This document shows, piece after piece, positions 49,876 to 52,591 of a stretch of 64,000 nt of DNA. The stretch covers positions 186,001-250,000 of the forward strand of contig NZ_KB894766.1 of assembly GCF_000374625.1 (NCBI RefSeq). The letters are read 5' to 3'. This stretch comes from Allobrachymonas chironomi DSM 19884. GTDB lineage: Bacteria > Pseudomonadota > Gammaproteobacteria > Burkholderiales > Burkholderiaceae_C. A model generated the notes under the pieces. That model worked only from the letters and a program-made list of their open reading frames with translations. It did no database searches and was not told where the DNA came from. A program made the position numbers and the translations under genes. The stretch's first letter is position 1, and each line of letters opens with the position of its first letter.

Positions 49876-50148
49876 TAACGGACTCTCCATGATTCAAAAA
49901 CAGCGATGTCCGTTTGGGCGGGATAAACGTCAAAAGGCCCATACACACACAAATCAATCACCGCAAAAAAACACCACATGTGCCCCTGCACTCCTGTAGT
50001 CTGGAACATCATACGCGAAGAGTATCCACACGCCCCGTGACATTTCCATGTCAGCGCACGATGTGTTGTTAGCAAGCATCTAAAATCCGGACTTTCCCGA
50101 ATAGCTGCAGATCGCTAGAATGCCGCATCTGCCACTTTACCCTTGGTC

Positions 50149-50709
50149 ATGGAAGCCTTTCTCGTATCTACCGGCCTGGTTGCCCTGGCCGAAATGGGTG
50201 ACAAAACCCAGTTGCTGTCATTGGTGCTGGCCGCCCGTTTCCGCAAGCCCTGGCCGATTGTCTGGGGCATTCTGGCAGCCACCCTGGCCAACCATGCGCT
50301 GGCAGGTGCACTGGGCAACTGGCTTTCCGGCCTGCTCAGCCCCGACATCCTGCGCTGGGTGCTGGTCGCGTCCTTTGTCGCCATGGCTGTCTGGATGCTG
50401 ATCCCGGACAAGCTCGATGAGGACGAGCAGCCATCCCAGCCCAGATACGGCGTCTTCCTGACCACCGTGGCGCTGTTCTTTCTGGCCGAAATGGGCGACA
50501 AGACGCAGATTGCCACCGTCGCCCTGGCCGCGCGCTTTGATGACTGGCTCTGGGTCGTGGCCGGCACCACGATTGGCATGATGCTGGCCAACGTGCCGGT
50601 GGTGTTCCTGGGCGAACGCATCACGCGGCTGCTGCCGATGCAGTGGGTGCATCGCATCTGTGCCGCCATCTTCATCGTGCTGGCACTCACCGCCGCGCTC
50701 TGGCCCTGA
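50149..50709 (+). CDS. UPF0016/GDT1-family divalent-cation exporter (MneA-like)
   Basis: A 186-residue membrane protein with two homologous halves, each with the signature ExGDKT (AEMGDKTQLL near 16-25 and AEMGDKTQIA near 120-129) and about six helices. GDT1/TMEM165/MneA proteins move Mn2+ or Ca2+; bacterial ones often export Mn2+. An upstream TTG six bases before the ATG makes the frame longer but is not needed. No manganese riboswitch signature was seen upstream. Its stop lies immediately before the metX promoter. Confidence 0.85.
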   Translation: MEAFLVSTGLVALAEMGDKTQLLSLVLAARFRKPWPIVWGILAATLANHALAGALGNWLSGLLSPDILRWVLVASFVAMAVWMLIPDKLDEDEQPSQPRYGVFLTTVALFFLAEMGDKTQIATVALAARFDDWLWVVAGTTIGMMLANVPVVFLGERITRLLPMQWVHRICAAIFIVLALTAALWP

Positions 50710-50711
50710 TG

Positions 50712-50741
50712 CTGACAAGGGCGTGACACGCTTGCTATACT
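50712..50741 (+). promoter_or_regulatory. Predicted sigma-70 promoter of metX
   Basis: -35 CTGACA at 50712-50717 and -10 TATACT at 50736-50741 with an 18-base spacer. The start point would be about 50748, a few bases before the riboswitch aptamer. The -35 lies directly after the preceding gene's stop. Confidence 0.6.
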
Positions 50742-50752
50742 AGGCTTCTTGT

Positions 50753-50806
50753 TGCGCCGATTTGCTTCCTGCTTGCGGGCGCCTGATAAATGCCGCTAAA
50801 CGGAGC
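50753..50806 (+). ncRNA. SAM-II riboswitch aptamer
   Basis: Key bases match the SAM-II pseudoknot: stem P1 GCGCC (50754-50758) with GGCGC (50778-50782), the GATTT block (50759-50763), TGATAAATG (50784-50792) and GCTAAA (50795-50800). The second helix can form from GCTTC (50764-50768) with GGAGC (50802-50806), and GCGG with CCGC. The order and spacing agree with the known metX aptamer. It lies before metX, a gene whose product feeds methionine and thus SAM. SAM-II is best known in alphaproteobacteria. Confidence 0.85.
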
Positions 50807-50812
50807 CTGCAG

Positions 50813-50852
50813 CCCGGTTTCCGTTTCATGACGGCAACCGGGTTTTGTTTTT
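50813..50852 (+). terminator. Intrinsic terminator between riboswitch and metX
   Basis: Stem CCCGGTT (50813-50819) with AACCGGG (50836-50842), an inner CCGT/ACGG helix and a 6-base loop, followed by TTTTGTTTTT (50843-50852). It ends three bases before the metX ATG and, with the aptamer, forms a transcription attenuator. The start codon then lies directly beyond the T-run. Confidence 0.82.
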
Positions 50853-50855
50853 GCC

Positions 50856-52007
50856 ATGTCCTTTGTAGCCATCCCCCAGACCATGCACTTTGCCGGGCCG
50901 CTGACCCTGCAGAGTGGTGCCACGCTGCGTGACTTCACGCTCGCGTACGAGACCTACGGTACCCTCAACGCCGATCGCAGCAATGCGGTGCTGATCTGCC
51001 ACGCCCTCAATGCCTCGCACCACGTAGCCGGGCATTACGCCGACGATCCGAACAATGTCGGCTGGTGGGACAACATGATCGGCCCCGGCAAGCCGGTCGA
51101 TACCAACCGCTTTTTCGTCATCGGCATCAACAACCTGGGCTCCTGCTTTGGCAGCACCGGCCCACGTGACCTGAATCCCGATGCCGATCCTCTCAGCCCG
51201 CGCCAGCGCTACGGCTCCGACTTTCCGGTCGTCACGGTAGAAGACTGGGTCAACGCCCAGGCCCTGCTGCTGGACGCGCTCGGCATCGACCAGCTGGCAG
51301 CCGTCATGGGAGGCAGCCTGGGCGGCATGCAGACGCTGAGCTGGTCGCTGCAGTACCCGCAGCGCCTGCGTCATGCCATCGTGATCGCCAGTGCACCCAA
51401 CCTGAGCGCCGAAAACATCGCCTTCAACGAGGTGGCGCGCCGCGCCATCGTGACCGATCCCGATTTCCACAACGGCCATTTCTACGAGCACGGCCTGGTG
51501 CCGGCACGCGGCTTGCGCATTGCACGCATGATCGGCCACATCACCTACCTGTCGGACGACGTGATGAACAGCAAGTTCGGCCGCGAGCTGCGCGATGCGG
51601 TATCGACCAACCTGAGCGGCTACAAGTACTCGACGCAGGATGTGGAGTTCCAGATCGAGAGCTATCTGCGCTACCAGGGCGACAAGTTCAGCACCTACTT
51701 TGACGCCAACACCTATCTGCTGATCACGCGTGCACTGGACTACTTCGACCCGGCTCGCAACTTCGATGGCAACCTGACTCGCACCCTGGCGCGTGCCCAG
51801 GCCGATTTCCTGCTGGTCAGCTTTACCACCGACTGGCGCTTCAGCCCGGCTCGCAGCCGCGAAATCGTCAAGGGCCTGCTGGACAACCGCCGGCGCGTGA
51901 GCTACCTGGAAATCGAGGCCCCGCACGGCCACGATGCCTTTCTGCTCGACAACCCGCAATATCTGGACGGCGTACGCACCTATTTTGAACGGAGGGTCGC
52001 GGCATGA
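50856..52007 (+). CDS. metX: Homoserine O-acetyltransferase MetX
   Basis: Acylates homoserine in methionine synthesis. 383 residues of alpha/beta-hydrolase fold with nucleophile Ser154 in [11 protein letters not shown], catalytic Asp and His near the C-terminus (DWRFSPARS and PHGHDAFL), and [11 protein letters not shown] and [11 protein letters not shown] in the family pattern. Whether acetyl- or succinyl-CoA is used cannot be read safely. No clear ribosome site precedes the ATG because the attenuator T-run occupies that position. It overlaps metW by 4 bases. Controlled by the SAM-II element upstream. Confidence 0.94.
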
Positions 52008-52591
52008 GCGGCGGACTGGTAGCGATCGAGGCGATTGCGCGGCTGGTGCCGCAAGGTGCCCATGTACTGGATCTGGGCTGCGGCGATGGCCGTCTGCTGG
52101 CCTATCTGCACGAGCAGCGCGGCTGTACCGGCTATGGTGTGGAAATCGACGATGCCCATGTGCAGGCCTGTCTGCAGCGTGGCGTCGATGTCCTGCAGAT
52201 CAACCTGGACACCGGCCTGCCGATGTTTGCCGACAACAGCTTTGACGTGGTGCTGCAGATCGACACCTTGCAGCACCTGCGCAATGCCGAAACCATGCTG
52301 CGCGAAACCACGCGTGTCGGCAAGCTCGGCGTGATTGCCTTCCCCAACTTTGCCCACTGGCCGAACCGCCTGTCCATCCTGCGCGGCCGCATGCCGGTGA
52401 GCAAGCGCATGCCTTACGAGTGGTACAACACGCCCAACATCCGCGTGGGTACCCATGCCGATTTCGGCGTGCTGGCCGCCCGCAACGGCCTGCGCGTACT
52501 CGACAACTTCGGCCTGCACGAAGGCGAAGTGGTGCGCTGGTGCCCCAACCTGCTGGCCAGCACCGCCGTCTATCAGGTTCAGCGCGCCTGA
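52004..52591 (+). CDS. metW: Methionine biosynthesis protein MetW
   Basis: A 195-residue SAM-dependent methyltransferase-fold protein that partners MetX in many proteobacteria. N-terminal SAM motif [15 protein letters not shown] (about 20-34), [14 protein letters not shown] (motif IV region) and [17 protein letters not shown], the MetW-specific phrase. Starts with an ATGA overlap to metX. Its end overlaps the convergent DUF2061 gene by 13 bases. Confidence 0.94.

Follow-up and report, generated by a model that had tools for sequence, protein, structure and literature searches.

The SAM-II riboswitch was described in 2005 with many associated terminators and Bordetella bronchiseptica in its alignment, and was taken to be a likely OFF switch (Corbino 2005, PMC1273637). 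A survey of 2007 singled it out as the only class whose usual companion in alpha- and betaproteobacteria is a terminator (PMC2258182). For termination, the nearest experimental parallel is the SAM-II leader of S. meliloti metZ, which yields a small RNA of ~100 nt that is more abundant at high SAM and which, like the locus described below, has a predicted terminator after the aptamer, but belongs to an alphaproteobacterium and to another gene (PMC9373788). According to the same paper, the best-studied SAM-II example probably regulates translation. A related H-type pseudoknot for SAM, the SAM-V riboswitch, is also found at methionine genes (PMC6061858).

From betaproteobacteria, Leyn and others described in 2014 the metXZ RNA, which stands before metX-metW in 30 of 35 genomes (10 of 11 Comamonadaceae) at one copy per genome, contains a pseudoknot of regions 1:4 and 2:6 and is consistently followed by terminators (PMC4239095). 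The paper calls metXZ new and places SAM_alpha in Rhizobiales and Rhodobacterales only. Judging by gene, taxa and topology rather than by letters, the metXZ RNA is very probably the same element as the one analysed here, i.e. SAM-II. This link was not found in the open-licence literature searched, including the available text of PMC8632094 and PMC4603805; 'metXZ' together with 'RNA' occurred there in PMC4239095 only. Binding or expression data for the host genus were likewise not found in our paper searches. Here we describe the leader of metX in Allobrachymonas chironomi, located in a window of 64,000 nucleotides (the whole stretch of DNA that was analysed). On the evidence of its sequence and relatives, the RNA of this leader is very likely a sensor of S-adenosylmethionine that halts transcription immediately upstream of metX.

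The metX leader and its aptamer

The leader, of ~145 bases on the + strand, lies between a gene for a GDT1-like antiporter (50143-50709; Pfam GDT1, 158.7 bits) and metX, which encodes a homoserine O-succinyl/acetyltransferase (50856-52007; NCBIfam MetX_succinyl, 638.5 bits against a cut-off of 560). The frame of metX shares four bases with that of metW (52004-52591; NCBIfam metW, 229.5 bits, cut-off 189.5), which has GGAGG ahead of its ATG; these two genes place methionine/SAM biosynthesis directly downstream of the leader. All genes and leader features described here for the window are on the + strand. MetX is 84% identical to its homologue in a Brachymonas sp. metagenome assembly (L032), and its close named relatives are otherwise mostly Comamonadaceae, so that the host is probably a Brachymonas-like member of that family. 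A sigma-70-like promoter, CTGACA-N18-TATACT (50712-50741; 10 of 12 matches, with TG before the -10), opens the leader, its -35 at 50712-50717 and its -10 at 50736-50741 being separated by a spacer of 18 nt; sites of equal score occur 0.5 times on average in shuffles of the region. Transcription would be expected to start near 50748, a few bases before P1. Among the 208 leaders collected (see below), 129 have a TANNNT box at most 15 nt before the matched aptamer, a raw count without a chance control. A near-consensus promoter before P1, a terminator between aptamer and gene, and a methionine gene downstream are shared with SAM-II as described in 2005 (PMC1273637), and the order aptamer, terminator, start is the same in named relatives. 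A manganese riboswitch ahead of the GDT1-like gene was not found in the window (49880-50250); an Acidovorax relative carries one of the yybP-ykoY type (L079:1088-1266, 66.2 bits) ~0.7 kb upstream of metX.

The aptamer core (50754-50806) was identified with the Rfam model SAM_alpha and with a family model, R1, and comprises P1, loop 1, a linker, the GCTAAA core and a tail. P1 is formed by GCGCC (50754-50758) and GGCGC (50778-50782). The loop that it closes opens with a GATTT block (50759-50763), and on the 3' side of P1 follow a TGATAAATG block (50784-50792) and the putative binding core GCUAAA (GCTAAA in DNA; 50795-50800), which aligns with the same block of the Rfam consensus. Promoter, aptamer blocks, P1 and terminator all lie, on re-reading the sequence, where a previous sequence-only reading had put them. 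The TGATAAATG block is not diagnostic, since an exact copy is found in 1 of 80 named relatives.

SAM_alpha (RF00521) matches positions 50744-50820 from end to end of the model with 28.9 bits (E = 1e-4 when 401 nt were searched with all 4227 Rfam families), below the gathering cut-off of 36 bits, a score reached by no match within the window. Nowhere else in the 2.5-Mb genome (35 contigs) does SAM_alpha match at E <= 0.001. SAM-V (RF01826) was not among the three Rfam matches obtained at E up to 10 in the 401-nt stretch. R1 is a covariance model of host-family aptamers from which the host genus and the Brachymonas locus were excluded. It started from 24 representatives of 140 family leaders, the remainder being 26 that were too long (a longer variant) and others more than 88% alike, and removal of three mis-trimmed sequences (L035, L084, L093) left 21. 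R1 gives the window aptamer 64.7 bits (E = 8.4e-19 over 64 kb, such E-values being rough), and its second-best place in the genome has E = 0.2. The covariance-model search that the sequence-only reading had proposed thus gave a divided answer, a miss at the Rfam cut-off and a clear match with the family model. We file the window element as a putative SAM-II riboswitch because it is homologous to family members above the cut-off, and not on the strength of its own Rfam score; its RNA would bind SAM. Taken by itself, the leader does not fold with unusual stability (z = -1.5; 13 of 200 shuffles reach as low an energy).

With RF00521 the window shares the GAUUUG, CUUGC and GCUAAA blocks, a single P1 and the putative layout of an H-type pseudoknot, but, besides its lower score, it differs from the consensus in a loop 1 without a GC-rich P2 and in a P1 that is almost fixed in the host family as GCGCC/GGCGC. 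P1 forms in every one of the 21 family sequences of the alignment; of the five pairs, two show changes on both sides and three are invariant. GCUAAA is invariant in the same alignment, although the selecting motif itself requires it. As 5' strand of P2 we propose the loop-1 segment GCUUCC (50764-50769), complementary to GGAGC at 50802-50806 (score 12). Complementarity of loop 1 and tail was no better in matched than in swapped pairs, by a crude test, among 43 family leaders (431 of 1000 swaps as good) or among 27 other leaders of the class (639 of 1000), and three guessed P2 column pairs were paired in 27% of cells of the 21-sequence family alignment. The outer pseudoknot pairs are present in the window, without support across the family.

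Distribution in the host family and class

R1 matches 180 of 200 host-family genomes, including 167 of 179 of good quality, 16 of the 21 sequences of the model being derived from genomes among these 200. With SAM_alpha, 111 of the 200 were matched at E <= 0.001 and 50 lay above the cut-off; the figures for the wider class were 118 matched genomes out of 369 and 30 above the cut-off, and none of 14 control genomes was matched. Most matched genomes have one SAM_alpha match, and one genome of the class (G444) has five. Within the host genus, R1 matches 7 of 9 genomes; the two that it misses are assemblies with a completeness of 62% and 71%. When Rfam was run on seven related loci, L002, L003, L117 and L125 passed (38.4-48.6 bits) while L032, L035 and L079 failed. 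The SAM_alpha cut-off is therefore conservative for this family, in which SAM-II is common. The sequence-only reading was right about the identity of the element, a SAM-II aptamer with an attenuator before metX, which both models, the family genomes and the literature bear out. It was wrong about its rarity, having regarded SAM-II in a betaproteobacterium as worthy of remark: besides the family genomes, B. bronchiseptica (PMC1273637) and the betaproteobacterial terminators of the 2007 survey (PMC2258182) stand against it.

We collected 241 loci (the window and L002-L241), of which 208 match the leader motif and 33 do not. In the family set (n = 144), 84 leaders were obtained by RNA search of family genomes and 59 by way of MetX, the remaining one being that of the window. 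A metX-like frame lies downstream of 142 of the 208 leaders and, within the family set, of 140 out of 144, where the 59 obtained through MetX carry no weight for gene context. Conversely, 66 of 80 named metX loci show the GATTT...GCTAAA pattern; the other 14 comprise two variants (L068, L092), two cut by contig ends (L073, L094) and ten that show none. In eight aptamer-free loci (L036, L049, L055, L056, L063, L064, L083 and L086) metX appears, by eye, close behind another frame.

Two variants of the element deserve description. Part of the loci L033-L096 (Limnohabitans, Curvibacter and others; e.g. L035:1861-1915) has a longer aptamer, in which P1 and GCTAAA are separated by an additional small hairpin, the distance from GATTT to GCTAAA being mostly 53-57 nt, and 65-69 nt in Hylemonella, against 40-46 nt in the other form. 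A congener of the host (G569) carries a shorter SAM-II-like element (L248:1500-1630), to which R1 gives 48.2 bits and behind which lies a hairpin. Since this element precedes frames resembling a MetN ABC ATPase and a MetI permease (best NCBIfam matches, both under their cut-offs), a SAM-II-like switch may also control methionine uptake in that genome.

Terminator, candidate antiterminator and the start of metX

Downstream of the aptamer lies a predicted intrinsic terminator (50812-50852), made of a hairpin at 50812-50843 with a fold energy of -20.7 kcal/mol and a U-run up to 50852. The T-run TTTTGTTTTT is followed by GCC and then by the ATG at 50856, so that 12 nt separate the hairpin end from the start codon. 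A simple terminator scan of the region did not list this terminator, we think because its stem is interrupted. Our own finder detected terminators in 124 of 144 family leaders and in 175 of 208 leaders overall, although it overlooks some visible ones (L004, L005) and misplaces others (L168, L175).

Folding and comparison point to a candidate antiterminator whose 5' half, AAACGGAGCC (50798-50807), overlaps the core and the P2 3' strand, and whose 3' half, GGUUUCCGUUU (50816-50826), lies within the terminator 5' arm. The duplex has 10 pairs and one bulge (-10.1 kcal/mol). When the growing transcript is folded without pseudoknots, the antiterminator is predicted for the lengths 50826, 50830, 50834 and 50838, and at 50843 the terminator has taken its place. 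In 150 distinct leaders the core-to-terminator duplex has a mean of -12.2 kcal/mol, against -10.4 with swapped partners (sd 0.19; 0 of 200 as low), a difference that, like the other swapped-partner tests, is inflated by the shared ancestry of the leaders; with shuffled arms the same leaders give -8.1 kcal/mol. With 24 dissimilar family leaders the duplex still stands at -11.06 against -9.03 kcal/mol swapped (sd 0.49; 0 of 500 as low). For 16 dissimilar class leaders outside the family the matched duplex was not better (103 of 500 swaps as good, not significant), probably because the antiterminator sequence is nearly constant there. Thus the ability of the terminator 5' arm to pair with the aptamer, as expected of an attenuator, is found in the family, and the swap test for the class is not significant.

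In the nascent folds, 93 of 117 distinct family leaders contain five or more antiterminator pairs, where shuffled arms would give 59.0; for the other class leaders the count is 47 of 50, against an expectation of 23.1. The 24 family leaders without this pairing in the nascent fold include L168 and L175, which appear to be finder errors. Congeners keep the pairing with other letters (ACGGAGCC/GGTTTCCGT in L242 and AACGGGGG/CTCCTGTT in L244), more weakly in L245. The family leaders thus support a putative antiterminator between the 3' core of the aptamer and the terminator 5' arm. Outside the family, in loci of the class such as L117, L125, L128 and L133, the terminator 5' arm is often CCTGCTTTAGC, nearly the full complement of the aptamer sequence GCTAAAGCGGG there.

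The sequence-only reading had also noted the lack of a ribosome site before metX. This stands for the window, which has no Shine-Dalgarno (SD) 4-mer between hairpin and start, but it is no peculiarity of this copy. We analysed 121 leaders with a terminator and an assigned metX start, taken from the 142 that a metX-like frame follows. None of the 45 whose hairpin lies at most 15 nt from the start (28 of them at most 10 nt) has an SD 4-mer in between, although in the closest ones the stretch is too short for a 4-mer, and the zero partly restates the spacing. The 4-mer is present in 24 of 66 leaders at 16-35 nt and in 3 of 10 beyond 35 nt. As a control, 31 of 32 metW starts have it; these 32 were retained out of 81 loci because a start codon lay close by and the match set in no more than six residues from the start. 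A script assigned the start codons, and a handful seem to be mistaken (e.g. L088, L054, L007, L147 and L003); the ten aptamer-free metX loci gave mixed signals and were excluded. In the window, the duplex with the anti-SD sequence reaches -10.0 kcal/mol for metW and -3.7 for metX, which has only the GGG of the stem. SD energy alone does not separate the metX leaders by distance, the medians of all three groups being -3.6 to -3.8 kcal/mol. The ATG at 50856 is probably the right start, since reading MetX from it gives an N-terminus like those of many relatives read in the same way, e.g. MSFIATPQSMHF. The ribosome would be likely to land on single-stranded, U-rich RNA to which ribosomal protein S1 binds. 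Where no more than 10 nt separate terminator and start, Barrick and Breaker assign dual control of transcription and translation (PMC2258182); with its 12 nt, the window falls just outside this rule.

A switch model and its alternatives

We propose, with a probability of about 0.85, that the element is a SAM-II riboswitch acting as an OFF attenuator of the metX-metW operon, with an antiterminator made between core and terminator and a start that works without SD. When SAM is scarce, P1 would stand alone and the 5' half of the antiterminator would pair with its 3' half; with this pairing (AAACGGAG/UUCCGUUU) in place, RNA polymerase would read through into metX. When SAM is plentiful, GCUAAA and the GGAG that follows would be held in the pseudoknot and the terminator 5' arm would be freed, allowing the hairpin to form and transcription to end in vivo within the U-run, at a distance of 3-12 nt from the start codon. 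SAM-II needs the core bases in the antiterminator 5' half for its pocket and for P2, and SAM binding and antiterminator should therefore exclude each other. In the ON state metX would be read without SD, ribosomes probably landing on the U-rich strand of the unformed terminator, in which case a single hairpin would stand in the way of transcription and of initiation alike.

The weakest point of this switch is its need for a kinetic ON state. The minimum-energy fold of the full leader holds the terminator, whose hairpin is more stable than the antiterminator (-20.7 against -10.1 kcal/mol), and since the terminator is thus favoured at equilibrium without ligand, antitermination must be kinetic. 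The same stability is what speaks for a real aptamer before a constitutive terminator, with SAM acting mainly on translation or on RNA stability, and a parallel exists in S. meliloti metA, where the terminator after SAM-II lowers expression in both media and for which the authors could predict no antiterminator (PMC9373788). However, P2 ends ~50 nt before the ATG and no ribosome site lies in or beside it, so that direct occlusion is unlikely in the metX leader, and the enrichment of the antiterminator in nascent folds also argues against this explanation, which we regard as unlikely. Slightly less probable still is an antiterminator of the same SAM-II element formed by the P1 3' strand (GCGGG) with the CCCGG arm of the terminator. 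CGGGC (50776-50780) is indeed complementary to GCCCG (50812-50816) in the window, the GC-rich P1 strand is nearly invariant, and Leyn and others speculate that the GC-rich regions 3 and 4 of metXZ contact the terminator stem (PMC4239095), an antiterminator idea that uses other regions than our model. But P1 (-7.7 kcal/mol) would have to open, at least four such pairs appear in the nascent folds of only 13 of 117 family leaders and 1 of 50 from the rest of the class, and in SAM-II the protection of P1 is reported not to depend on SAM, P2 and L1 being protected in its presence only (PMC10907184), which fits a switch that spares P1.

That the aptamer is a chance resemblance, and the hairpin the ordinary terminator of the GDT1-like gene, is hardly conceivable. 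The Rfam score below the cut-off and the position of the hairpin, ~100 nt downstream of the end of that gene on the same strand, would suit it, but the score of 64.7 bits comes from a model that never saw the host genus, 180 family genomes match that model, and a promoter-like site stands between gene and hairpin. The R1 score, the family matches and the single strong match in the genome refute it for practical purposes.

The proposed SAM-II switch with a core-made antiterminator joins two literatures, the 'novel' betaproteobacterial metXZ RNA being very probably SAM-II that scores under or close to the Rfam cut-off, and gives SAM-II a concrete, testable transcriptional mechanism. It also provides a natural set of leaders in which the U-run of a terminator abuts a start codon without SD site. 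More tentatively, as a possibility to which we give rather less than even odds, the SAM-II terminator may have absorbed the ribosome landing site in the host family, ribosomes starting on metX from the U-run and the exposed 3' arm, both available only while the terminator is unformed, so that one hairpin gates transcription and translation, and the antiterminator made from the core may be a platform shared by the family and the rest of the class. If this is true, such an antiterminator would be the common expression platform of terminator-bearing SAM-II riboswitches in both.
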